A program made the position numbers and the translations under genes. From contig JAURWC010000076.1 of assembly GCA_030655135.1 (NCBI GenBank), positions 62,001-126,000 of the forward strand: a DNA stretch of 64,000 nucleotides, in the 5' to 3' direction. Shown one piece after another: positions 381 through 24,716 of this stretch (the first letter of the stretch is position 1; the number at the start of each line of letters is the position of its first letter). Under the pieces are notes generated by a model. The model saw nothing but the letters and a program-made list of their open reading frames with translations. It was not told where the DNA came from and did not search any database. Source of the DNA: Hyphomicrobiaceae bacterium (GTDB lineage Bacteria > Pseudomonadota > Alphaproteobacteria > Rhizobiales > Hyphomicrobiaceae).

Positions 381-1273
381 GCGACGACGGTCAGCATGCT
401 CTGACCATCATCGCTTTCATCGGCAGCGTGTTCTCGCCTTATTACGCGGCTGCGCGGCGGCTTGGCTGGAGCGATCCGGAGAACTTCTGTGCCGTCAACG
501 TCGCGCTTTATGAGCCGCGACGGAAGTTCTGGTCACTGACGGAGCGGACGCGACGCGACCTGCGGCGCAATCGCGATTCCCTGGCTATCGGCCCAAGCAG
601 CCTGCTGTGCGACGGCAATGCTCTGGTGATCGACATCAACGAACTGACGGTGCCGGTGCCACGGCGCATTCGTGGCACCGTACGGGTCACCCCGACGGTG
701 ACGAACGACAAGGTCATGCATTTGGACGAGGCGGGACGGCATCGCTGGCGGCCGATCGCGCCCCATGCGCGCGTAAGGGTGGAGTTGCACGATCCACGCA
801 TTCGCTGGGAGGGAGCCGCATACCTCGACACCAACTCCGGAGACGAGCCGTTGGAGGACGCATTCTTGGCATGGGACTGGTCGCGCGCCCACACCCCTGA
901 CGGCACGACCATTACCTACGACGTGACGCGGCGCGATGGGTCCAAAGGCTCGCTCGGCCGCATTTTCGACCCTAGTGGACGAATGCGTACTCCAGGTTTG
1001 CCGCCCACGGTCCCGCTGCCGGCTACCCACTGGCGGATCGCCCGGAACGTCCGGTGCGACGTTGAATGTTCGCCGCACGTGGTGCGCACACTGGAAGATA
1101 CACCTTTCTACGCCCGCTCCGTCGTCGAGACGCATTTGGGCAGCAAGCCGGTGACGGCAATCCACGAAAGCCTTTCGCTGTCTCGCGTTGCAAACCCGAT
1201 CGTCCGCTGCATGCTTCCATTCCGCATGCCGCGTAAAAGATTCCGGCATCCGAACGATGTCTGGCGCGCTTGA
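179..1273 (+). CDS. crtC: Hydroxyneurosporene synthase / carotenoid 1,2-hydratase CrtC
   Basis: CrtC hydrates the terminal 1,2 double bond of acyclic carotenes during spheroidene or spirilloxanthin synthesis. The frame contains typical CrtC blocks: PGGYVWWYVDAISDDG, AFIGSVFSPYYAAARR, the ENFCAVNVALY segment and a C-terminal HESLSLSRV stretch near FRMPRK. The start is uncertain. No ATG, GTG or TTG lies in frame between 179 (GTG) and the conserved PGGY block near 345; the only ATG is at 38, deep inside crtD. A later GTG at 428 would give 281 residues but would lose conserved sequence. The overlap with crtD implies translational coupling. Confidence 0.8.
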   Translation: MDGILQPADGADAGAAPLPGGRQYTSGAGRADGGSVGADGGGARLEGLGFDAPVAPGGYVWWYVDAISDDGQHALTIIAFIGSVFSPYYAAARRLGWSDPENFCAVNVALYEPRRKFWSLTERTRRDLRRNRDSLAIGPSSLLCDGNALVIDINELTVPVPRRIRGTVRVTPTVTNDKVMHLDEAGRHRWRPIAPHARVRVELHDPRIRWEGAAYLDTNSGDEPLEDAFLAWDWSRAHTPDGTTITYDVTRRDGSKGSLGRIFDPSGRMRTPGLPPTVPLPATHWRIARNVRCDVECSPHVVRTLEDTPFYARSVVETHLGSKPVTAIHESLSLSRVANPIVRCMLPFRMPRKRFRHPNDVWRA

Positions 1274-1343
1274 CATCCTGGCTCAACGCACCGACGATCT
1301 GTCAGAGCCCCATAAAGAGGGCAGCCGTGGAGGATCGCTTTGC

Positions 1344-1407: not shown

Positions 1408-3681
1408 ATGACTCGTTCGCAACCCGCCGTAAAAGACGCCGTAACCGCCAAGAACGTGGATCTTTCGAACTGCGACCAGGAATTGGTTCAGTTTCCTGGC
1501 GCCATCCAGCCCCACGGGGCAATGCTCATTGTCGATGAGCCGGACTACATTATCCGCCAGGCGAGCGCCAACTGCGAAGCGATCATCGGCCGGTCTGCGA
1601 ACGACGTGCTCGGCAAGCGCGTCGCGGACGTGTTCGCTGCCGCCCCGCGCATGCTGGAGCAGATGCAGCGCATGTCGCTCGAGAACGGGCCCGTGCATGT
1701 CGTGCGGGAGTCGTTTGCCGGCGCCACCAACGGGGTCAACATTTTCGCGCATCGCTGCGGCGGTGTCCTCATCCTGGAAGTCGAGACGATTGCCGATCCG
1801 GCGGCCGAACCTACGACGCATCTGTATTCCGACGTGCGGGAAACGATTGCGATGCTGGAGGCGTGCCAGGGTCTGCAAAATTTCTTCGACCTCGCCGTTG
1901 AGCGCATCCGGGTTTTTACCGGATACGATCGCGTGCTGGCTTACAAGTTCGCCGAGGATGGCAGCGGCCATGTGATGGCGGAAGCGATACCCGAGGGCCT
2001 GGAGCCGTATCTCGGCCTGCACTATCCTGCGTCGGACATCCCGGCGCCGGCGCGCCGCCTGTTCGGCGCGAGCTGGCTGCGCCACCTGCCCGACGTCAGC
2101 TATGAACCTGTCGCGCTTGTCGCCAACGGCCCTTCGGGAACGTCCGCTCCGATCGACATGAGCTACGCCATCCTGCGCAGCGTCTCCGTCATGTACTCCG
2201 GCTATCTCAAGAACATGGGCGTGCATTCCACGATGGTGATGCCCCTCATGAAGCAGGGGCAGCTATGGGGTCTCATCTCGGCCATGCATCATAGCGGGCC
2301 GCGGCATGTTCCCTACGAAGCGCGAATGGCAGCGGAGTTCCTGTCGCACATGCTCTCCCTGCTGATGAGCGGCAAGGAAGACGCCGACGGGTACGAGCAG
2401 CGACTACGCATGACAGCCGTCGCGGACCAGCTGGTGGAAGGCTTGTGCCGCAACCCCGATCTGCATGTGTCGCTCGTTGCGCCGGATCAGCCCAATTTAA
2501 TGTCGCTCATTCCGTCGCAAGGCGCGGCCATTGCGGCGCGCGGCAGCTTTAGCCTTATCGGGCAGACGCCGGCTGAGGACGATGTCGCGGCGCTGGTCGA
2601 CTGGCTATCAAAGATGAACCAACCGGTCTTCTGCACCGAGCAGCTGTCTGAGCTTTATCCAGCCGCCGGAAATTTCAGGTCGGTTGCCAGTGGCGTCCTG
2701 GCCGTCCGGCTGTCCCAGCAGACCCGGGATTTCCTGCTGTGGTTCCGGCCGGAGCACGTCGAAATCGTGAATTGGGCGGGGAATCCAGAGAAACCGGTCG
2801 TCGTCAGCGAGAGCGACGGCGAAGTGAAGCTGCAGCCTCGCAGGTCGTTCGCGCTCTGGAAGGAAAGCGTGACCGGGCGGTCCGAACCGTGGCGCCAAGA
2901 CGAGCGCGAAGCCGCTTCAGCGCTGCGCCAATCGATCCTCGAAATCATCTTGAGCCGTGCTGAAGAGGTCGATCGGGTCAATCGGCAGCTGGCGGAGGTC
3001 AATGTCGAGCTCGATAGTTTTGCCTATGCTGCATCGCACGATTTGAAGGAGCCGCTGCGGGGCGTGCATCACCTCGCGAGCTTCCTGAAAAGGGGTCAAG
3101 AGGGCCGCATCGACGATGAGGGCCGCCAGCAACTGGAGACCATCCTGAAGCTGACGCGGCGCATGGACGATTTGATCGAATCCCTGCTGCAATACTCCAG
3201 AACAGGCCGTGTCGAGCTGATGCTGGAGACGCACGACATGGATGAGCTGGTCGACGAGGCGCTGATGTCGTGCCGCCGGCTGTTCGCCGAACGCCCCGCG
3301 GACATTCGCCGGCCGATGCCGCTAGGGACCATCGTTTGCGATCGTGTGCGAGTGCGAGAAGTCCTCTCAAATTTGATCTCCAACGGCATCAAATACAACG
3401 ACAAGTCGCAACGCTGGATCGAGATAGGCGTGGAACGTGCCAGCCCGACACGCTATTATGTGCGCGATAACGGGATTGGGATTTCGGCCTCCGCTAAAGA
3501 TCGAATTTTTGATATTTTCCGCCGCGTTCACGGCGAGCACGAATTTGGCGGCGGCGTGGGGGCTGGACTGACGATCTCGCGCAAAACAGTTGAACGGCAC
3601 GGTGGCCGCCTCTGGGTCGACTCCTTGCCGGACGAAGGCTCGATCTTTTACTTCACCTTGGGGCCGGAGAGATCCGCATGA
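1408..3681 (+). CDS. bphP: Bacteriophytochrome sensor histidine kinase
   Basis: A 757-residue red/far-red photoreceptor with order PAS (~15-120), GAF (~140-310), PHY (~325-505), histidine kinase (~535-755). The biliverdin-linking Cys is Cys22 in the SNCDQE block. The GAF domain carries PASDIP (Asp210), and the PHY tongue carries the PRxSF motif (PRRSFALW). The kinase is Cph1-like, with FAYAASHDLKEPLRG (His544), NLISNGIKY (N box), DNGIGIS and GGGVGAGLTI. At the place of the conserved pocket His in SPxH the protein reads SVMY (Tyr263), and GLISAMHH is one residue longer than the usual GLIACHH. The stop overlaps the next ATG by 4 bp, so kinase and regulator are coupled. Photochemistry cannot be read from sequence. 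Confidence 0.95.
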   Translation: MTRSQPAVKDAVTAKNVDLSNCDQELVQFPGAIQPHGAMLIVDEPDYIIRQASANCEAIIGRSANDVLGKRVADVFAAAPRMLEQMQRMSLENGPVHVVRESFAGATNGVNIFAHRCGGVLILEVETIADPAAEPTTHLYSDVRETIAMLEACQGLQNFFDLAVERIRVFTGYDRVLAYKFAEDGSGHVMAEAIPEGLEPYLGLHYPASDIPAPARRLFGASWLRHLPDVSYEPVALVANGPSGTSAPIDMSYAILRSVSVMYSGYLKNMGVHSTMVMPLMKQGQLWGLISAMHHSGPRHVPYEARMAAEFLSHMLSLLMSGKEDADGYEQRLRMTAVADQLVEGLCRNPDLHVSLVAPDQPNLMSLIPSQGAAIAARGSFSLIGQTPAEDDVAALVDWLSKMNQPVFCTEQLSELYPAAGNFRSVASGVLAVRLSQQTRDFLLWFRPEHVEIVNWAGNPEKPVVVSESDGEVKLQPRRSFALWKESVTGRSEPWRQDEREAASALRQSILEIILSRAEEVDRVNRQLAEVNVELDSFAYAASHDLKEPLRGVHHLASFLKRGQEGRIDDEGRQQLETILKLTRRMDDLIESLLQYSRTGRVELMLETHDMDELVDEALMSCRRLFAERPADIRRPMPLGTIVCDRVRVREVLSNLISNGIKYNDKSQRWIEIGVERASPTRYYVRDNGIGISASAKDRIFDIFRRVHGEHEFGGGVGAGLTISRKTVERHGGRLWVDSLPDEGSIFYFTLGPERSA

Positions 3682-4529
3682 CGGTGCGCAGCGTCCTTTC
3701 TGTCGAAGATAGCGACACCGACTTCATGGCATTGCAGTTCGCGCTCAATGCGGCCGGCGTGAACGTGCCGCTGACGCGATGCGCCACGGGGCGCGAGGCC
3801 ATGACGTGGATGGAGAACGCGCCCTCTTGCGACCTGTCGGAGCGGACGTCGCTTGTGCTTATGGATCTCAATCTGCCCGGCATCGATGGATTGCAGCTGT
3901 TGAAAGCGGTTCGCCAGCGCGATCCCAAGCGGCAGGTGCCCGTGATCGTGTTGACGACATCCTCTCACCCGCGCGACATCGCGAGCTGCTACGAGGCCGG
4001 CGCGGACGCCTATCTCACCAAGCCGCTGGCTCTCGAGGACTGGGAAAGCAAGGTCGGTTCGTTGACGGAGTATTGGCTCACCGCGGCCGCCGGCAAGTCC
4101 GGCTTCAGGCCCGTCGGGCACTTCAGCGGCAGCGACGCTGCATCGCGCCATGAAACACTGGCGCGCACGATCGAACGCGAGGTCATTCCGCGTCTGCTGC
4201 TGGCGCACGAAACAGACGCGCACGGCTCGGGCAGTGGTGGCTTGATCGGCAATTCGTTTACCCCCGGAGAAGATGTCGTTGCGGAACTTGCCCGCCTTGT
4301 TCTAGAGGCCGATGTCGCGACAGCCGCGAGATTCGTCGAATCCGTGCGCGGCCCCAGGACAAGCATCGATTCCATTTTCCAGCAGCTCATTACGCCGGCC
4401 AGCCGGCTCGTCGGCGACCTGTGGAAGACCGACCACTGCAGTTTTCTGCAGTTTTCGCAGGCTCTGGAACGGTTGCAACAACTGCTCGTCGAACTTGATC
4501 TCGACGGCAACTGCGAAACCCGGCACTAA
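3678..4529 (+). CDS. Rcp1-type response regulator fused to a PpaA/AerR-like helical domain
   Basis: A 283-residue protein. Residues ~5-130 are a receiver domain of the phytochrome-partner (Rcp1) type: acidic pair E10/D11, phospho-acceptor Asp63 in LVLMDLNLPGIDG, and Lys115 in YLTKPLALED. Residues ~158-275 closely match the N-terminal half of PpaA/AerR encoded at 23565-24434: IEREVIPRLLLAH against IEADIIPKLLLAH, then IF..L.TP..RL.G.LW..D.C.F with QQ.L..L. The DxHxxG cobalamin motif and Rossmann half of PpaA are absent because the protein ends first. This is therefore not a simple Rcp1. By inference it may connect BphP phosphorylation to the PpsR/PpaA circuit. ATGA overlap with bphP. Confidence 0.88.
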   Translation: MTVRSVLSVEDSDTDFMALQFALNAAGVNVPLTRCATGREAMTWMENAPSCDLSERTSLVLMDLNLPGIDGLQLLKAVRQRDPKRQVPVIVLTTSSHPRDIASCYEAGADAYLTKPLALEDWESKVGSLTEYWLTAAAGKSGFRPVGHFSGSDAASRHETLARTIEREVIPRLLLAHETDAHGSGSGGLIGNSFTPGEDVVAELARLVLEADVATAARFVESVRGPRTSIDSIFQQLITPASRLVGDLWKTDHCSFLQFSQALERLQQLLVELDLDGNCETRH

Positions 4530-4609: not shown

Positions 4610-5572
4610 ATGCCAGAGAACTTGACACCTTTGACTGTCATTTTATCTAGACCGCGGGGTTTCTGTGCCGGTGTCGTGCGAGCCGTGCAGATGGTTGAGG
4701 AAGCGCTGCAGCGGTATGGCGCGCCGATCTATGTTCGTCACGAGATCGTCCATAACAAGCATGTCGTTGCTGACCTGAGAGCGCGGGGCGCCATCTTCGT
4801 GGATGACGTGGCCGAGATCCCTGAAGGCGCGATTACGATTTTCAGCGCGCATGGCGTTGCTCCCGACGTCGAGCAGTCGGCAGACGCGCGCCATCTCGAC
4901 GTCATCGATGCGACTTGCCCTCTTGTGCGCCGTGTGCACAACGAGGGGAGGCGCTATGCGCAGATGGGCTACGACGTCGTGCTGATCGGCCATCGTGGTC
5001 ACCCGGAGGTCGAGGGGACGAGCGGGCAGATCGGCGGACGGCTGCACATCGTCGGGACGCCGGCCGAGGTGGACACCCTGAACGTCGAAGATCCCGCGCG
5101 GGTCGCTTTCGTGACACAAACGACTTTGAGCGTGTCCGATACCCAGGACACCATTTCCGCTTTGAAGCGCCGGTTCCCCCGCATCGCGGGACAGGACACG
5201 AAGGACATCTGCTATGCGACGCAGAACCGCCAGAACGCTGTCGCCGACCTATTGAAGCGCGTCGACCTTTTGCTCGTCGTTGGGTCCGCCAACAGCTCGA
5301 ATGCCAACCGGCTGCAGGAGATCGGCCGCAGCGCGGGCGTGCCCAGCTATCTAATCGACGGGCCGGCCGGTATCGATGCCGCCTGGCTGCGTGATGTCGC
5401 TACGGTTGGCATCACGGCCGGCGCCTCGGCCCCGGAGATACTCGTCCAAGACACGTTGAAATTCCTGGCGTCGTTGCGCCCGGTTGTCGTCACGGAGATG
5501 GACGGTCGCGACGAGGCCGTCCGGTTTCGTCTGCCCGACAGGTTCGTCGCAAAGGCAGAAGTCAGGGTTTAG
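4610..5572 (+). CDS. ispH: 4-hydroxy-3-methylbut-2-enyl diphosphate reductase IspH (LytB)
   Basis: Last enzyme of the MEP pathway; it makes IPP and DMAPP. It has 320 residues, the normal length. The three iron-sulfur cysteines are visible in RGFCAGV, DATCPLV and KDICYATQNRQ, with the EVEGT and SSNANRL active-site segments. It stands 80 bp after the phytochrome regulator and 14 bp before bchI, so it is placed to be co-expressed with Mg chelatase. Together with dxs at 11926 it puts both the first and the last MEP-pathway steps inside the PGC. The ATG at 4610 has no strong Shine-Dalgarno, but the protein alignment begins there. Confidence 0.95.
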   Translation: MPENLTPLTVILSRPRGFCAGVVRAVQMVEEALQRYGAPIYVRHEIVHNKHVVADLRARGAIFVDDVAEIPEGAITIFSAHGVAPDVEQSADARHLDVIDATCPLVRRVHNEGRRYAQMGYDVVLIGHRGHPEVEGTSGQIGGRLHIVGTPAEVDTLNVEDPARVAFVTQTTLSVSDTQDTISALKRRFPRIAGQDTKDICYATQNRQNAVADLLKRVDLLLVVGSANSSNANRLQEIGRSAGVPSYLIDGPAGIDAAWLRDVATVGITAGASAPEILVQDTLKFLASLRPVVVTEMDGRDEAVRFRLPDRFVAKAEVRV

Positions 5573-5586
5573 CAAAGGCGATCGAT

Positions 5587-6612
5587 ATGCGCGCGCTCTA
5601 TCCGTTCACCGCAATCATCGGCCAGGACGAGATGCGGCTGGCGCTGCTTATTGCGGCCGTCGACCCGACGATCGGCGGCGTTCTCGTCTTCGGCGATCGC
5701 GGAACCGGCAAGTCGACCGCGGTCCGCGGGCTGGCGTCGCTGCTGCCGCCGATGCGCGCGGTGTGCGGATGCAAATATCATTGCGATCCTGGCGCGAACG
5801 GCTCGGGCTGCGACGATTGCCAGGAGCGCGGCCGCGAAGGTCCGCTGCCGAGCGAATTGGTTGCGGTGCCCGTCGTCGACCTGCCGCTGGGTGCCACCGA
5901 AGACCGGATCGTCGGCGCACTGGATCTCGAGCGCGCCCTGACGCGCGGCGAAAAGGCGTTCCAGACCGGCCTGCTGGCGCGCGCGCATCGCGGCTTTCTC
6001 TATATCGACGAGGTCAACCTGCTGGAGGACCACCTCGTCGATCTTCTGCTCGACGTGGCGGCGTCGGGCGAGAACGTCGTTGAGCGGGAAGGGCTCAGCG
6101 TGCGCCACCCGGCTCGCTTCGTGCTGGTCGGCAGCGGGAACCCGGAAGAAGGCGAGCTGCGTCCGCAACTGCTGGACCGGTTCGGCTTGTCGGTGGAGGT
6201 GCGCACGCCCCAGGATATCGCCACGCGCGTTGAAATCGTGCAGCGGCGCGACGCGTTCGAGCGCGCACCGGCGGCGTTCGCAGCGGCTTGGCAGGGTGAG
6301 GACGAGGCCGTACGCGCGCAAATCGAGGCCGCCCGGCGCCTACTGCGGTCAGTCGACGTGCCGACATCGATAATGGAGCAGATGGCGCGGCTGTGCTCAG
6401 GGCTCGGCACCGACGGCTTGCGCGGAGAGCTGACGTTGATGCGCGCTGCGCGGGCTACCGCTGCTCTGGATGGCGCAACGACGGTGACGGCGGAGCACGT
6501 CCGTGGCGTGACGCCGCTGGCGCTGCGCCATCGGCTGCGGCGCAATCCGCTCGAAGAAGCCGGCTCTACTGCGCGCATCGATCGCGCGGTCGTGGAGGCT
6601 TTCGGTGCCTGA
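5587..6612 (+). CDS. bchI: Magnesium chelatase ATPase subunit BchI
   Basis: AAA+ subunit of the Mg chelatase that inserts Mg2+ into protoporphyrin IX with BchD and BchH. It has 341 residues. Walker A is GDRGTGKST, Walker B is GFLYIDEVNLL, sensor 1 lies in VGSGNPEEGELRPQLLDRFG (the arginine-finger region). A conserved Cys cluster (CGCKYHCDP, then CDDC) lies near residues 60-80, as in BchI/ChlI. It overlaps bchD by 8 bp, so the two interacting subunits are translationally coupled. Confidence 0.97.
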   Translation: MRALYPFTAIIGQDEMRLALLIAAVDPTIGGVLVFGDRGTGKSTAVRGLASLLPPMRAVCGCKYHCDPGANGSGCDDCQERGREGPLPSELVAVPVVDLPLGATEDRIVGALDLERALTRGEKAFQTGLLARAHRGFLYIDEVNLLEDHLVDLLLDVAASGENVVEREGLSVRHPARFVLVGSGNPEEGELRPQLLDRFGLSVEVRTPQDIATRVEIVQRRDAFERAPAAFAAAWQGEDEAVRAQIEAARRLLRSVDVPTSIMEQMARLCSGLGTDGLRGELTLMRAARATAALDGATTVTAEHVRGVTPLALRHRLRRNPLEEAGSTARIDRAVVEAFGA

Positions 6613-8347
6613 CGCAAAGACGGCATCAGGCGCGGGAGCAGCGCTCAGCGATGCGGACTGGGCAGCGGCCATCGTGGCGATGGACCCTGCCGTTGTTGGC
6701 GGCGTCGTGATAAGGGCGCGCCACGGGGAGGATGCCGACTCCTGGCTTAGGCTTTTGCGCGGTCTTCTGTCGCCCGGAACGCCCGTGCGGCGCGTGCCGG
6801 GACATATCACTGATGACCGGCTGCTCGGCGGGCTGGATCTGGCGGCAACGCTGGCGGCCGGACGGCCGATGGTGGCGAGCGGTCTGCTGGCTGAGGCCGA
6901 CGGCGGCTTATTGGTACTGCCGCTGGCAGAGCGCGTGGCGGCTGCGACGGCGGCGCATCTGGCAGCGGCTCGCGATCTCGGCGAGGTGCTGATCGAGCGC
7001 GACGGTTTCACCTGCCGCGCACGGGCGCGGTTCGGCGTCATCGCGCTCAACGAGGGCCGCGACGACGAGCAACCGCCAGCCAACCTGACAGACCGGCTAG
7101 CGATCCATATCGATCTTGCGGCATCCCCGCCTACCGCCGATGCCGGCGCACTATCTACGCTGGTTGATAGAGCGCGCAGCACCGGTGCGGACGTGACCAT
7201 ATCCACTGAAATTACGGAGGCGATTTGCGGCGCTGCGGTGTCACTCGGCATCGGATCACTGACAGCGTCAGTGTTTGCCGTGCGTGTGGCGCGGATCGCG
7301 GCTGCGCTGGCGGGGCGAACGGCCGTCGCCGAAGACGATGTCATCCTTGCCGCGCGGCTCGTGCTTGGGCCTCGCGCAACAACAATTCCCGCGTCACCCG
7401 AGCAGCCGGAAGAGCAATCCGCGCCTGACGCAAGCGACGGGCAATCCGCTGACGACGAGACGACAGGCGAACTAAAAGATGTTGCCGTGGAAGCAGCGCG
7501 GGCTTCGCTGCCGCCGGGGCTGCTCGCGCAGCTCACTGCTTGCGCGAATCGCAGCAACGCAACGGGGGCCGGCCGCAGCAAACAACCGCACACGGCCAGC
7601 CGGCGTGGGCGAAGCGTCGGCGTCAAGCGCGGCCCACCAAGCGGTGGGGCGCGCTTGAATCTGATCGAGACGCTGCGCGCGGCCGCGCCGTGGCAGAGGA
7701 TGCGCCGGCAGAACGACAGGCCGGGGCGCGTCGAAGTCCGCGCTGATGATTTCCGCGTGCGCCGCCTCAAACAGCAAGTTGCGGCCACGACAATCTTTCT
7801 GGTGGATGCGTCCGGCTCAAGCGCGCTGCATCGCCTCGGCGAGGCGAAGGGTGCCGTGGAGCTGCTGCTGGCGGACTGCTACGTTCGGCGTGACCAGGTT
7901 GCCATGATCGCCTTCAGCGGACGCGGCGCGGAAGTACTGTTGCCGCCGACGCGGTCTCTGGCACGCGCCCGGCGCAGCCTGGCCGATCTGCCCGGCGGCG
8001 GCGGTACACCGCTGGCAGCCGGGATTGATGCCACGGCGCTGATGGTGGAGGCAGTGAAGCGCAAGGGGCAGGCGCCCGGTGTCGTCATTCTCACGGACGG
8101 CAAGGCAAATCTAACCCGGGCAGGGACCGGCGGGCGTAGTGTTGCCGAGGAAGAAGCGCTCACAGCCGCGCGGGCCATGCGCCTGCTTAATGCCAAGGCC
8201 ATTGTCATCGATACCTCGCCGCAGCCACAGCCGCAGGCCGCGCGCGTGGCCGACGCGCTCGGTGCGCGCTATCTTCCGTTGCCGCGTGCAGACGCAGAAA
8301 CACTCTGCCTAGCAGTGAAGGCGCAGCAGGACAGGAGAGGCGCGTGA
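6605..8347 (+). CDS. bchD: Magnesium chelatase subunit BchD
   Basis: 580-residue partner of BchI. The N-terminal half is a degenerate AAA+ module without a good Walker A. A low-complexity acidic/Pro/Ala/Gln linker (~260-300) follows, then basic residues. The C-terminal VWA/integrin-I domain has the MIDAS motif DASGSS and the conserved FSGRGAE and GGGGTPLAAG segments. The start is GTG at 6605, inside the end of bchI. The 3' end overlaps bchO by 4 bp (GTGA). BchD forms the platform on which the BchI hexamer assembles. Confidence 0.95.
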   Translation: MPDAKTASGAGAALSDADWAAAIVAMDPAVVGGVVIRARHGEDADSWLRLLRGLLSPGTPVRRVPGHITDDRLLGGLDLAATLAAGRPMVASGLLAEADGGLLVLPLAERVAAATAAHLAAARDLGEVLIERDGFTCRARARFGVIALNEGRDDEQPPANLTDRLAIHIDLAASPPTADAGALSTLVDRARSTGADVTISTEITEAICGAAVSLGIGSLTASVFAVRVARIAAALAGRTAVAEDDVILAARLVLGPRATTIPASPEQPEEQSAPDASDGQSADDETTGELKDVAVEAARASLPPGLLAQLTACANRSNATGAGRSKQPHTASRRGRSVGVKRGPPSGGARLNLIETLRAAAPWQRMRRQNDRPGRVEVRADDFRVRRLKQQVAATTIFLVDASGSSALHRLGEAKGAVELLLADCYVRRDQVAMIAFSGRGAEVLLPPTRSLARARRSLADLPGGGGTPLAAGIDATALMVEAVKRKGQAPGVVILTDGKANLTRAGTGGRSVAEEEALTAARAMRLLNAKAIVIDTSPQPQPQAARVADALGARYLPLPRADAETLCLAVKAQQDRRGA

Positions 8348-9249
8348 GCAAACGGCTCGTCTGGAACCGCGACGGGCTGGACTGGCCCAATCGCGAGGCC
8401 AGCCGCTTCGTGACGGCGGGCGGGTTGACTTGGCATGTCCAGGTGATGGGCAACGGCCCCGTGATCTTGCTCATTCACGGAACTGGGGCCTCCACGCATT
8501 CCTGGCGCGACGTGCTCCCGCGGCTGGCTCTGACGCACACGGTGGTCGCGCCCGATCTTCCGGGACACGGCTTTACATCCAGCCCCGATGCAGCCGGATT
8601 TTCGCTGCCCGGCATGGCGAGGGGTTTAAGTGCTCTCATGACCGAACTGGATCTTCGTCCCGAGGTTGCCGTGGGCCATTCGGCCGGTGCGGCAATTCTC
8701 ATTCGCGCTGCACTCGACCGCCGCATTTCACCGTCGGCGATCATCAGCCTGAATGGGGCGTTGCTGCCGTTCGGCAGCGTGTTCGGGATGTTCTTTTCCC
8801 CCGTGGCAAAGCTGCTGGTCAGCGCACCTACCGTGCCGAGCCTCCTATCGTGGCGGGCGGAAAAGATCGATCGAGTCGAACGCATTCTGCGCGGCACGGG
8901 CTCCAGAATAGACGCGATTGGGCTGGATCTTTACGCGCGGCTGTTTCGCAATCCGGGACATGTCGCGGCCGCCCTGGGCATGATGGCCAACTGGGACCTC
9001 CGATCGCTGACTTATGACCTGCCGCGGTTGCGCATCCCGCTCTTCCTGATCGCCGGAGGCGAAGATACCGCCATTCCTCCGCAGCAAACTTTTAGGGTGC
9101 GAGACATGCTGCCGTCCGCGACGACCACCTATTTGCGAGGCCTGGGCCATCTGGCACATGAGGAAGATCCCGAGACGGTGAGCGGCTACATCGAGCGCGT
9201 TGCGGCGCGGCAAGGCGTGCCTGCGCGCAAAAGTGCGGTGGCCAGCTGA
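8344..9249 (+). CDS. bchO: Alpha/beta-hydrolase BchO
   Basis: Alpha/beta-hydrolase of 301 residues, linked by position to Mg chelatase in nearly all purple-bacterial bchIDO operons. Visible features are the HGTGASTHSW oxyanion region, the nucleophile elbow GHSAGAA, the acid-bearing GGEDTAIPP loop and the late His in LGHLAHEE. The GTG start overlaps the bchD stop. The family is thought to act around protoporphyrin metallation, but no reaction is proved. A second, membrane-anchored hydrolase lies at 40318. Confidence 0.93.
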   Translation: MSKRLVWNRDGLDWPNREASRFVTAGGLTWHVQVMGNGPVILLIHGTGASTHSWRDVLPRLALTHTVVAPDLPGHGFTSSPDAAGFSLPGMARGLSALMTELDLRPEVAVGHSAGAAILIRAALDRRISPSAIISLNGALLPFGSVFGMFFSPVAKLLVSAPTVPSLLSWRAEKIDRVERILRGTGSRIDAIGLDLYARLFRNPGHVAAALGMMANWDLRSLTYDLPRLRIPLFLIAGGEDTAIPPQQTFRVRDMLPSATTTYLRGLGHLAHEEDPETVSGYIERVAARQGVPARKSAVAS

Positions 9250-22091: not shown

Positions 22092-23522
22092 TCAATCGTC
22101 GTCGTCATCGTCGGGGCCGCTCAAGCCGAAGCGATGCAGCTTGGAATAGAGGCTCTGCCGGCTCAGGCCCAGCATCTCCGCGGCGGAGGCGCGGTTGTTC
22201 TTCGTCAGCTCAAGCGCTGCTTCGATGCACAGCTTCTCGATCACGTCAGTCGTTTCGCGAACCAGTTCCTTCAACGAGACACGGCCGACTAAGCCAGTCA
22301 GCTGTTCTACCGAACGTGGCAACTCACCCTTCGGTTGGGGCTTTGGCTGGTCGCGGCGCCCGAAGTTGCGGATCGTGAAGCCATAGCAGGGATACTCGCC
22401 GTTCAACACCGAGACCGCAGAGATCTCCACGTCCTCGTGCGATCCGTACTGGCCGCGCACGATCGTCGAGAAGCGGCGGACAGAGCCGTGTTCGCGCATA
22501 TTCGATACGAGCGCTTCGACATCGACCCCCGGGCGGCCGACCCAGCGATCCAGTGGTTCGCCACGCGCTTGCTCTTCCGTGGCCAGCTGCGCCAAGTCGA
22601 GGAAGGCGGGATTTGCGGTCAAGATGCGCCGCTCGGGATCGGTCACGACGAAGCCGTCGGGCAAACTTTCGACTACGTTGAGCAGCTTGGAGTTGGCGCG
22701 CGGAGCCACGCCGCCGTCAGTCGACGACAAGCGGATCAGAAAGTGCGCCGAGTTCTCCTGCCTGAACAGCGAGGCGGAGATCATGCTTTCCTGGCCAGAC
22801 TCGCTCAAGCGGGCGACAATTTCGTCAGCCTGGCCGGCATTGCGAGCGGCGGCCAGGTTCGCTTGCACAGCCTTCGCGCTTTCGGGCTCGAACAGTTCGA
22901 GAAACCGGCGGCCAAGCAAGCGCTTGGCGCTGCGGCCGAGAAGCTCGGTCGCGGCAGGATTTGCTTCCACCACCTTCATCGACGTGGCGTCAACGATGAT
23001 CACCGGCTCCGAAGCGATCTGGAACAGGAGGCGATAGCGCGTCTCGGCATGGCGCAGGCGCGCGTACTCGCGCTCCATTGTTTGCTGAGCATCAACCAGG
23101 CGTTGCTGAAGGGCGGCCACCGTCCTGAGATCGCGCCCGACGGCCACGAGCCGGCCGCCGTTTCCGATCTGGACGGCCGCAAAGCGGATCGGGATACCGG
23201 CTGGAGTTTTCTTCGATGCATGATTGACCTGGCGCCAGCGCAATGGCGCCTTCGCGTTTGCGGCATCACGAATCAGCTCTTCGATCTTGGTCCGGGATTC
23301 CACGGTAACGGTTTCGACCCAAGGCTGGCCGACCCACTTCTCAAATCCCTCATTGGCAAGATCGTCGTTGCTGAACGCAACATCGCGAATGATGCCTTTT
23401 GCGTCGACGATCAAAGCGATGTCGGCCGCAGCCGCAATCAACTTGGCAGCTGTTTCAGCCTCCAGATCGCCGAGCGTTCTCTTCGGGGCCCGGAACACAA
23501 TTCCTGCTTCTCGAGCGAACAC
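22092..23522 (-). CDS. ppsR: Transcriptional repressor PpsR/CrtJ
   Basis: 476-residue redox- and light-responsive repressor of photosynthesis genes. Three PAS-like segments are visible (about 25-140, 160-275, 285-395; for example IIVDATSMKVVEANPAATEL and FVVTDPERRILTANPAF), joined by a Gln-rich coiled segment. The C-terminal Fis-type HTH reads NNRASAAEMLGLSRQSLYSK, preceded by a Cys in IEKLCIEAALEL, the place of the redox Cys known in CrtJ/PpsR. The protein ends in a run of six Asp. It stands downstream of its antirepressor gene ppaA, 42 bp away. Confidence 0.96.
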   Translation of the reverse strand: MFAREAGIVFRAPKRTLGDLEAETAAKLIAAAADIALIVDAKGIIRDVAFSNDDLANEGFEKWVGQPWVETVTVESRTKIEELIRDAANAKAPLRWRQVNHASKKTPAGIPIRFAAVQIGNGGRLVAVGRDLRTVAALQQRLVDAQQTMEREYARLRHAETRYRLLFQIASEPVIIVDATSMKVVEANPAATELLGRSAKRLLGRRFLELFEPESAKAVQANLAAARNAGQADEIVARLSESGQESMISASLFRQENSAHFLIRLSSTDGGVAPRANSKLLNVVESLPDGFVVTDPERRILTANPAFLDLAQLATEEQARGEPLDRWVGRPGVDVEALVSNMREHGSVRRFSTIVRGQYGSHEDVEISAVSVLNGEYPCYGFTIRNFGRRDQPKPQPKGELPRSVEQLTGLVGRVSLKELVRETTDVIEKLCIEAALELTKNNRASAAEMLGLSRQSLYSKLHRFGLSGPDDDDDD

Positions 23523-23564: not shown

Positions 23565-24434
23565 TCAACATTGCCATGCGCTGGTGTCAAGCAAACTGGA
23601 AATCCGGGGGACGGCCCTTCGCCCGTCTGGGGCCGTAGCATCTGCACCGACTTGCCTTACAAACTCGGGGTGCTCGAGGAAAAGGCGTCCGCCGACCATG
23701 ACCTTGAGGTCTGAGTCGACGGCGCTCTTCCTGATCGCCCGGATGATGGCGGCCAGCCCATCAACCGGCGTATCATTCGTGAATGAAAGTCCGACGACGT
23801 CGAACCGCTCCAATCGGGTGCAGCGTAGCAACGCATCGTACGAGGCGGGTTCGCCAGTGACCTCCCACCCCGCACGACGGAAAAACTCGCGAATGATCTG
23901 AATGCCGAAGCCATGATCGTCGCCCGGCGCCGCAATAAGCAGGGCACGGCGAGCGCGCGGTCTGGCGTGCGGAACTCGTTCATAGAATTCCGGCGCAAGG
24001 TCGCGCAACATCTGCTGCATCTGCGAAAGCGCGAGCGTAACATCCGTGAAATCACAAATGTCTTCGTTCCAAAGTTCGCCCAATAAGCGCGCAGACGGCG
24101 TGAACAGCTCAAGGAAAATGCCGGAAATGGGCGTGCCGCGCCGGCGCAACGCCGTAATCATGTGTGCGGCGGCTTTGCCGTCGCCGCGAAGTAGATAGCG
24201 CGAAAAGGCGATGACGTCATCGGCGGTAACGCTTGCCGGCTGCTCTTGGGACACGTCATGCGCCAGCAGCAGCTTGGGTATGATGTCGGCCTCGATGACC
24301 TTCGATAACTTGGCGTGAGCGGCTTTGTTGAGCTTGGGTTTGGATTGAACGGCTTTGGGACGCAACGACTCCCATCCGCCACCACCGCCAACCGGCCAGT
24401 GGTCAAAATTCGCGAGCGACCTGAAACCAGACAT
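23565..24434 (-). CDS. ppaA: Cobalamin-binding antirepressor PpaA/AerR
   Basis: 289 residues from ATG 24434, which has an AAGGGG Shine-Dalgarno; a GTG/ATG start further upstream is less likely. The N-terminal half is a helical SCHIC/B12-binding-2-like domain (IIPKLLLAH; GELWNEDICDF). The C-terminal half is a Rossmann cobalamin-binding domain with DxHxxG in PGDDHGFGIQI and a following VVGLSFTNDTP. AerR/PpaA proteins bind B12 in the light and modulate PpsR/CrtJ. The gene is upstream of ppsR and divergent from bchF, the standard PGC layout. Its first half is closely matched by the response regulator at 3678. Confidence 0.95.
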   Translation of the reverse strand: MSGFRSLANFDHWPVGGGGGWESLRPKAVQSKPKLNKAAHAKLSKVIEADIIPKLLLAHDVSQEQPASVTADDVIAFSRYLLRGDGKAAAHMITALRRRGTPISGIFLELFTPSARLLGELWNEDICDFTDVTLALSQMQQMLRDLAPEFYERVPHARPRARRALLIAAPGDDHGFGIQIIREFFRRAGWEVTGEPASYDALLRCTRLERFDVVGLSFTNDTPVDGLAAIIRAIRKSAVDSDLKVMVGGRLFLEHPEFVRQVGADATAPDGRRAVPRISSLLDTSAWQC

Positions 24435-24716
24435 TGGTCCCCTTCCCCCCGCTGGCGACCTGCTAACGCAGACCATCTGCCAAGCGGACTACAAACTCGC
24501 CTTCGTTCGCCGCCTCGAAACGGGCCGCGTTTTTTCTATTGCGTCAGTTAACCACAGTTGACACTGTGCGATCAAGTCACCTGGACAGTGAGCCTCGAAA
24601 CTAAAAAAATGTAAAGTAGATTTTACGTCCAATTTAGTTGACACTTCTCGATATGCGGTCGTACTCTTTCGTTAAGGCTCATGCACTCGCATGGCAGACG
24701 AGGGAGAAAGAGCCCA
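24435..24716. promoter_or_regulatory. Divergent ppaA-bchF control region
   Basis: 282 bp without a gene. It holds two PpsR-like palindromes (24546-24563, one mismatch and weak symmetry; 24626-24643), a CACAGT-TGAC-ACTGTG inverted repeat at 24553-24568 and an A/T-rich stretch around 24600-24640 suitable for promoter elements. It must drive ppaA-ppsR leftward and the bchF superoperon rightward. Confidence 0.7.
24626..24643. promoter_or_regulatory. PpsR/CrtJ-type operator upstream of bchF
   Basis: CGTCCAATTTAGTTGACA matches TGT-N12-ACA with one mismatch; on the minus strand it begins with the strong TGTCAA half. It lies 73 bp before the bchF start. The weaker AGT-N12-ACA at 24546-24563 is 62 bp further upstream, so two sites may cooperate. 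Confidence 0.65.

Follow-up and report, generated by a model that had tools for sequence, protein, structure and literature searches.

A response regulator encoded with a bacteriophytochrome in the photosynthesis gene cluster of a Hyphomicrobiaceae bacterium carries a PpaA/AerR-type cap without the cobalamin half

How red or far-red light perceived by a phytochrome kinase might reach the repressor of photosynthesis is the question raised by two overlapping genes in a 64,000-nucleotide stretch (hereafter, the window) from a Hyphomicrobiaceae bacterium. In R. palustris, the response regulator that receives phosphate from BphP2/P3 is described as a sink, and the study calls it unclear how these bacteriophytochromes influence the protein that follows in the path (PMC6879726). 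The regulator analyzed here, RRcap, joins a receiver to a second domain that the original prediction likened to the N-terminal half of PpaA.

1408..3681, + strand: bphP, bacteriophytochrome with PAS-GAF-PHY-HisKA-HATPase architecture (Pfam); its stop overlaps the RRcap start (ATGA)
3678..4529, + strand: RRcap, REC-cap response regulator; ATG start, 283 aa; Pfam Response_reg and B12-binding_2; one of seven fusions
3678..4082, + strand: RRcap receiver domain, residues 1–135; Pfam Response_reg at residues 6–122, E 3.4e-19; phospho-acceptor Asp63
4149..4208, + strand: RRcap residues 158–177, PpaA-like IExEIIPRLLLAH segment N-terminal to the cap (alignment of seven RRcap and 39 PpaA caps)
4263..4499, + strand: RRcap four-helix B12-binding_2-type cap (PF02607), residues 196–274, with W249, F256, F259, S260, and Q267; structural match to AerR/AppA/CarH caps
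4518..4526, + strand: RRcap C-terminal tail T281-x-H283; T and H in 7/7 orthologues
23565..24476, − strand: ppaA, full-length relative with cap and cobalamin Rossmann half (GDDHGFG)

The N-terminal domain is a receiver with Asp63 and Lys115, as originally predicted: both residues, along with E10, D11, T94, Y112, and P116, are unchanged in 7/7 orthologues, and position T93 is Thr or Ser. By residue conservation, the phosphorylation site of Rcp1-type receivers is complete in all seven. Receivers fill the Foldseek matches of full-length RRcap, including the phytochrome response regulators 6xvu, 1k66, 1i3c, and 1k68, as well as 4zyl. Rcp1 and the BphP response regulators (1i3c, 6xvu, LhfD/Rpa3017 4zyl) share with RRcap the receiver type and a histidine-kinase phytochrome partner; their solved chains comprise 139–149 residues, and we take them to be single-domain proteins without an output domain. 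RRcap, in contrast, carries an extra cap domain and is not a single receiver.

Within the C-terminal part, Pfam PF02607 (B12-binding_2) matches residues 202–270 at 24.4 bits, against a curated cut-off of 23 (E 3.3e-5); HMMER searches at E-values up to 10, where filters drop most matches above ~0.1, returned no other family and no Rossmann B12-binding family. Across the whole source genome, the best match to RRcap after itself is the PpaA of the window (E 2.0e-16, residues 140–273, 36% identity), and residues 145–283 alone recover PpaA at E 9.2e-17 and 39% identity. Both motif pairs by which the domains had originally been aligned, IEREVIPRLLLAH / IEADIIPKLLLAH and IFQQLITPASRLVGDLWKTDHCSF / IFLELFTPSARLLGELWNEDICDF, are found in RRcap and PpaA, respectively. 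Chance similarity is ruled out by E-values of ~1e-16 over the whole source genome and by the seven fusions.

A model of the cap built without PpaA sequences in the alignment (mean pLDDT 70.8) matches AerR 7te2 over 84 residues (Z 11.3), AppA SCHIC 4heh over 78 residues (Z 10.8), and AppA within the AppA-PpsR2 complex 4hh3 over 78 residues (Z 10.0); all of the best 41 structural matches are B12-cap-type proteins, with unrelated entries beginning at Z 6.9. Foldseek E-values for the cap alone were weak (best 1e-2, none ≤1e-3), and the best 50 matches listed are cobalamin-cap proteins throughout. Helices in the RRcap model span residues 197–209, 213–223, 230–250, and 256–273. The originally proposed PpaA-type identity is thus upheld by the family profile, which scores above its cut-off with no unrelated family beside it, by the PpaA match in the source genome, and by the structural matches to the AerR and AppA SCHIC caps; the C-terminal domain is confirmed as a homolog of the PpaA/AerR N-terminal cap half without the cobalamin half. 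The loss of that half, also foreseen, extends to all seven fusions: none matches the Rossmann half of the window PpaA, and RRcap ends after the cap. The proposed domain boundaries (~158–275) hold for the cap; residues ~158–177 (IE..LLLAH) fall outside both the Pfam domain and the confident bundle (pLDDT <50 in the full-length model), yet are conserved in PpaA and the fusion, with P171 in 7/7 RRcap and 38/39 PpaA, R172 in 7/7 and 36/39, and H177 in 6/7 and 29/39.

AerR Gln112 and Thr105 are residues modeled against CrtJ; according to the available text, these contacts come from a model guided by AppA-PpsR, with no solved AerR complex (PMC9144470). The helix-4 counterpart of Gln112, Q267, is present in 7/7 fusions, Ser or Thr occupies the position of Thr105 in 6/7, and AerR Ser109 has no conserved counterpart position. 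The B12-facing Trp (W249) is retained in 7/7 and the B12-facing Phe (F256) in 6/7. The B12-pocket Val adjacent to the upper ligand, found in 39/39 PpaA, is Phe (F259) in 7/7 RRcap; because the PpaA Val/Thr pair (V 39/39, T 37/39) is replaced by Phe and Ser/Thr/Glu, the helix-4 surface is altered. Invariant residues specific to the fusion class are F259, T281, and H283 (7/7). The CarH/LitR Wx9EH motif, described as contacting the upper axial ligand (PMC9304148), gives way to W249-x9-F259-S260 in RRcap, with F in 7/7.

RRcap resembles PpaA/AerR (R. capsulatus AerR, 7te2) in its four-helix cap with W-x6-F and a helix-4 Gln, in the N-terminal segment that precedes the cap in PpaA, in its photosynthesis gene cluster location, and in its likely partner, PpsR; it differs in lacking the cobalamin Rossmann half (DxHxxG lower-ligand motif), in its N-terminal receiver, in having Phe for the Val ten residues past the Trp, and in not lying beside ppsR. 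AppA (BLUF-SCHIC) of Rhodobacter sphaeroides is likewise a photosynthesis regulator combining sensor input with a B12-cap-type module, whereas RRcap takes its input through a phospho-receiver whose phytochrome is a separate protein. Of SCHIC, a heme-binding cap plus Rossmann module, it contains only the cap half. CarH/LitR, which carries a MerR DNA-binding domain and uses AdoCbl, has an identical cap fold, but its Wx9EH is W-x9-F-S/T/E in RRcap. A precedent for a PpaA/AerR-like protein that still controls pigmentation without a recognizable cobalamin domain is HP1 (Rru_A0625) of Rhodospirillum rubrum; unlike RRcap, it lies beside ppsR, has a proposed redox input and, in the available text, no reported receiver, and it is a loose precedent because it has diverged so far that, in its authors' view, any related domain is unrecognizable (PMC10734443).

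Further genes of the window bear on the context of RRcap.

4610..9249, + strand: ispH-bchI-bchD-bchO, directly 3′ of RRcap (ORFs; gene names presumed)
22092..23522, − strand: ppsR, proposed target (NCBIfam TIGR02040, 506.7 bits)

The RRcap start codon overlaps the stop codon of a gene for a histidine-kinase bacteriophytochrome in 7/7 cases (ATGA in six, TGATG in one), and this BphP type and the fusion co-occur in 7 of 103 family genomes, neither being found in the others, bearing out the coupling to bphP that had been proposed. In BphP, the bilin-Cys region, PA[ST]DIP, PRxSF, and the H, N, G1, and G2 boxes were identified; the boxes occur in 7/7 BphP, the aligned N-box Asn and PA[ST]DIP likewise, and the bilin Cys in all six non-truncated sequences of the seven. 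A heme oxygenase, for biliverdin, is encoded in the source genome. The fusion precedes bchIDO-crtIB in the photosynthesis gene cluster, with gene order fixed across the seven genomes; bchI-bchD-bchO is syntenic in the other six, two of which also have ispH between RRcap and bchI. RRcap is ~18 kb from ppsR and ppaA, and so does not adjoin ppsR as ppaA proper does in the window. In the translation of the ppsR ORF, the Q-linker pattern Q..L...Q...E..Y...R falls at residue 139; it is complete in 5/5 PpsR examined.

The receiver-cap fusion is no one-genome oddity: it recurs in seven genomes (source genome included) of four genera in one family. All seven separately contain a full-length ppaA beside ppsR (G329 and G349 among them). 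The fusion ORF is intact in 7/7, with a C-terminal part 39–51% identical to that of the window RRcap, and the fusion caps form one group in the cap tree (99/98) that takes no settled position among PpaA caps; they may or may not derive from the family's own ppaA. Queried with the alignment of the seven fusions, 385 class genomes (E ≤1e-25) gave a full-length match in the source genome only, 397 order genomes (E ≤1e-34) in it and G338 only, and 398 phylum genomes (E ≤1e-34) in it only; these samples overlap, at most six candidates were scored per genome, and the other five fusion genomes are absent from the genomes with a match. The remaining class and order matches are to the receiver part or, in five class cases, to the cap part in frames of 311–384 aa; none of six receiver-part matches that were read contained a cap. 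Searching 297 order genomes with the cap alone gave matches in 54; the 20 loci retrieved were the source RRcap and 19 PpaA-type genes, and a few matches beyond these were read (the source PpaA, G257, and four others). A scan of named genomes yielded 68 loci, and no cap match was found in any of them (E ≤1e-3, frames of at least 60 aa). Among 1221 plasmid records with a match, four (H1, H2, H4, H12) cover at least 80% of the query at 23–26% identity; a further record, H19 (Polymorphobacter), matches solely in the cap part and bears the annotation "cobalamin B12-binding domain-containing protein." A wide distribution is rejected on this sampling, no fusion having been found outside the source family in the samples searched. 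No published description of the fusion was found in a literature search whose scope mostly excluded subscription papers.

The presence of a PpaA/AerR-type cap half in the partner of BphP suggests a possible direct route from red/far-red light to the photosynthesis repressor PpsR. It is somewhat probable, in our assessment, that BphP and RRcap form a light-driven two-component pair with protein–protein output onto PpsR. BphP would bind biliverdin, and red/far-red light would, through phosphotransfer, alter phosphorylation of Asp63; this in turn would change the exposure or pairing of the PpaA/AerR-type cap, whose helix 4 (S260, Q267) would dock on the PpsR Q-linker helix, where the AppA SCHIC domain binds and where AerR has been modeled. 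The docked cap might then alter, or compete for, PpaA control of PpsR, and light could thereby lead to either repression or derepression. Of this mechanism, what was observed comprises kinase and receiver signatures that are intact, a homologous cap lacking the cobalamin half, conservation, the coupling of the genes, and a PpsR with the Q-linker pattern. From the retained contact residues and genome context, we infer that RRcap acts on PpsR; its binding and modulation of PpsR/CrtJ are predicted solely from residue conservation. The altered helix-4 surface, the AerR Ser109 that is not kept, and the ~18 kb separating RRcap from ppsR and ppaA speak against docking. The AppA SCHIC module provides a precedent for binding to PpsR (PMC9144470).

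The cap could instead act on PpaA, by pairing or by swapping in trans onto its cobalamin-loaded Rossmann half, such that phosphorylation tunes a B12 photoreceptor. This reading, which we consider unlikely, would account for retention of the B12-facing W249 and F256 despite the absent cobalamin domain, draws on the separate ppaA in every fusion genome, and gives a role to the terminal H283, which could reach a cobalt; however, the Trp and Phe may be structural, and the bulky Phe in place of Val by the upper ligand more likely fills the ligand pocket. It is quite unlikely that RRcap serves mainly as a phosphate sink, or with an unrelated partner, its cap being for dimerization only: LhfD (Rpa3017), the cognate regulator of R. 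palustris BphP2/P3, is described as such a sink (PMC6879726), has the same receiver type, and is among the RRcap structure matches (4zyl), but a sink has no need of a second domain, and this cap is kept in seven species, is of the PpsR-contacting type, and lies in a cluster with PpsR. That the cap is a functionless remnant of a ppaA duplicate that decayed and was joined to the receiver by accident, as loss of the Rossmann half and changes at PpaA-invariant residues might imply, is already disfavored and highly improbable, given the single tree group, the ORF kept in 7/7, the invariant F259, T281, and H283, and the fixed gene order.

Returning to PpsR as the target, we see an even chance that RRcap represents a "phospho-AerR," a new class of two-component output in which a phosphorylation-switched, cofactor-free cap would relay a red/far-red signal to PpsR by contact, blue-light/B12 (PpaA) and red (BphP-RRcap) inputs competing at one Q-linker helix. 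In photosynthetic bacteria, RpBphP1-PpsR2 and BrBphP1-PpsR2 are examples of PpsR under bacteriophytochrome control, as predicted here for BphP-RRcap; RpBphP1 is described as complexing directly with PpsR2, with a PAS9-HOS output (PMC6899989), whereas the BphP here has its kinase complete and is paired with a regulator of its own. BphP-RRcap would thus be a compact red-light module distinct from BphP1-PpsR2. Because RRcap includes an output domain of a kind already tied to PpsR, the whole path from light to repressor is testable with three purified proteins, and would show whether an AerR/SCHIC cap suffices on PpsR without cobalamin or heme.

A possible regulatory element lies upstream of the two genes.

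1258..1275, no strand assigned: TGT-N12-ACA palindrome, 150 nt upstream of bphP, overlapping a TTGACA

We take this palindrome to fit the PpsR-type consensus; as a PpsR box it is weak, being exact in 2/6 upstream regions and occurring eight times in the window against 5.4 (range 2–11) in 30 Markov sequences. The window also encodes what is presumably an ALA-synthase-like HemA, a trait suggestive of Alphaproteobacteria, and Rfam identified in it a tRNA alone.

RRcap, the receiver-cap fusion encoded beside the bacteriophytochrome gene, is listed here with four other features of the window:

1408-3681, + strand: bphP, histidine-kinase bacteriophytochrome and presumed partner of RRcap
3678-4529, + strand: RRcap, open frame of 283 aa
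22092-23522, - strand: ppsR, proposed target of RRcap
23565-24476, - strand: ppaA
42510-42582, - strand: tRNA, the window's sole Rfam match

Pfam's Response_reg covers RRcap residues 6-122 (E 3.4e-19), and PF02607 (B12-binding_2, the four-helix cap) covers residues 202-270 with 24.4 bits vs a cut-off of 23. The original prediction, made by eye, correctly called Asp63, Lys115 and the PpaA-like motifs; its alignment of the C-terminal domain with the N-terminal half of PpaA is borne out by PF02607 and by a search of the window's own genome, in which PpaA is the top non-self match (36% identity for residues 140-273, E 2.0e-16, with the whole protein as query; 39%, E 9.2e-17, with residues 145-283 as sole query). 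The cobalamin Rossmann domain is missing, as proposed, with no such B12-binding family among the Pfam matches to RRcap. Each half is of a known kind; their combination appears to be new to us, and no description of it was found in the literature searched on this system.

In the full-length model the receiver is of good quality, residues 141-196 have low confidence and the C-terminal domain is helical. Foldseek matches to the receiver are headed by 6xvu (a Deinococcus bacteriophytochrome regulator), RcpB and Rcp1, while in VIA-align many regulators fit it about equally. The C-terminal domain was modeled separately from an alignment of seven fusions without PpaA. Rows 1-41 of its VIA-align output are B12-type-cap proteins throughout, including AerR 7te2 (Z 11.3, 84 residues, 2.8 A), AppA SCHIC 4heh (Z 10.8, 78 residues, 1.9 A) and AppA as bound to PpsR2 in 4hh3 (Z 10.0, 78 residues, 3.0 A); the best unrelated row has Z 6.9. 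Foldseek E-values are weak (best 1e-2), and all 50 matches listed are cobalamin-cap proteins. Because unrelated helical bundles can reach such Z scores, the structural match carries weight only when combined with the sequence evidence.

RRcap is not a singleton. A cap match is present in 30 of 103 genomes of the family, and the top match of each was read: 23 are PpaA-type proteins with the Rossmann half and seven are receiver-cap fusions without it (the window's own genome, G329, G338, G341, G348, G349 and G357; genera g1, g3, g4 and g130). The window's protein is 47-56% identical to the other six, and receiver-site residues E10, D11, D63, T94, Y112, K115 and P116 are invariant. A seven-fusion profile found no full-length fusion outside the family in samples of 385 genomes from the class, 397 from the order and 398 from the phylum, which overlap and were scored for at most six candidates per genome, so that rare fusions elsewhere could escape; none occurred in named genomes among 68 loci. 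In a 50-cap tree the seven form one group (support 99/98); the tree does not resolve the branching point of this group among the PpaA caps.

Comparison of the seven fusion caps with 39 PpaA caps reveals conservation of W249 and G246 (7/7 and 39/39 each), P240 (7/7, 37/39), F256 (6/7, 37/39), Q267 (7/7, 34/39) and the PRL of the IE..IIPRLLLAH segment. A Val found in all 39 PpaA is Phe259 in all seven fusions, followed by Ser, Thr or Glu vs Thr in 37/39 PpaA. T281 and H283, at the extreme C-terminus, are new and present in 7/7; this T-x-H tail (window 4518-4526) reads TRH, TLH or TIH, its Thr lies 14-15 residues past the invariant helix-4 Gln, and no similar tail stands out among the PpaA caps. 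In CarH, the Wx9EH motif touches B12 at its upper axial group (PMC9304148). In AerR, the upper ligand is capped by Trp94 and Phe101; modeling that took the AppA-PpsR crystal structure as its guide sets helix-4 residues Thr105, Ser109 and Gln112 against conserved CrtJ Q-linker residues (PMC9144470). Judged by spacing from the Trp, W249 and F259 would stand at the W and E positions of Wx9EH. Thus a B12-facing position has changed, to Phe259, and the PpsR-facing Gln, Q267, is retained. The full Q..L...Q...E..Y...R pattern occurs in all five PpsR examined (window, G348, G357, G341, G338).

A bacteriophytochrome gene lies directly 5' of the fusion in all seven genomes, with the stop and start overlapping (ATGA in six, TGATG in one); a conserved CCGGAG precedes the overlap in 7/7. 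The six other phytochromes are 68-70% identical to the window's; PA[ST]DIP, PRxSF, SHDLKEP, the N-box Asn, DNGIGI and GxGAGL align in 7/7, and D[LF]SNCD is found in all six that are untruncated. Among the 103 family genomes (ten candidates scored per genome, E<=1e-100), this phytochrome type is restricted to the seven with the fusion; two further genomes have phytochromes at 34-35% identity and no fusion. Genes that we take to be bchI-bchD-bchO-crtI-crtB lie 3' in 7/7, followed by a presumed dxs in the six whose contig continues; a putative ispH intervenes before bchI in the window and 2/6 others, and a gene that we consider crtC-like lies upstream of bphP in six uncut loci. Three fusion-less phototrophic relatives (G001, G367, G152) have bchIDO without bphP in front; the stretch examined from a fourth, G274, lacks bchI. 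Full-length PpaA is present in 7/7 fusion genomes, each time beside ppsR. Heme oxygenase, the usual source of biliverdin, is encoded elsewhere in the window's genome.

A CTTGACA element lies 139-156 nt upstream of bphP in 6/6 upstream regions (window 1258-1330, L123, L124, L125, L126, L128), with GAGGG (5/6) and GGAGGA (6/6) to its 3' side; an exact TGT-N12-ACA palindrome overlaps it in the window and L124.

The most likely mechanism is that BphP, in response to light, would alter D63 phosphorylation of RRcap, and that the phosphorylation state would alter the cap's availability for the PpsR Q-linker. The parts of this route are intact, coupled and conserved, and the partner is present; we infer phosphotransfer, docking and the sign of the effect. 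A less likely alternative is that the cap acts on PpaA instead of PpsR; conservation of the Trp that faces B12, and of the His at the C-terminus, would be compatible with this. The proposed mechanism finds a supporting precedent in R. rubrum HP1, also PpaA-like without a recognizable cobalamin domain; HP1 is reported to be required for pigmentation when cells grow micro-/anaerobically in the dark (PMC10734443). By contrast with the RRcap route, RpBphP1 is described as complexing with PpsR2 itself (PMC6899989). In R. palustris, LhfD takes phosphate from BphP2/P3 and is termed a sink, and the action of BphP2/P3 on LhfE is called unknown (PMC6879726).

At four of six loci read (L135, L139, L161, L162), an RRcap-type receiver stands alone and adjoins a receiver-plus-histidine-kinase protein, the kinase part judged by eye. 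In four genomes of genus g36 (L173, L174, L175, L176; G139, G190, G073, G030), a second PpaA-like gene has an in-frame TGA in a shared position before the cap (LAKR*EGETIS); a short form probably starts past it, an arrangement that recalls the short and long AerR isoforms.
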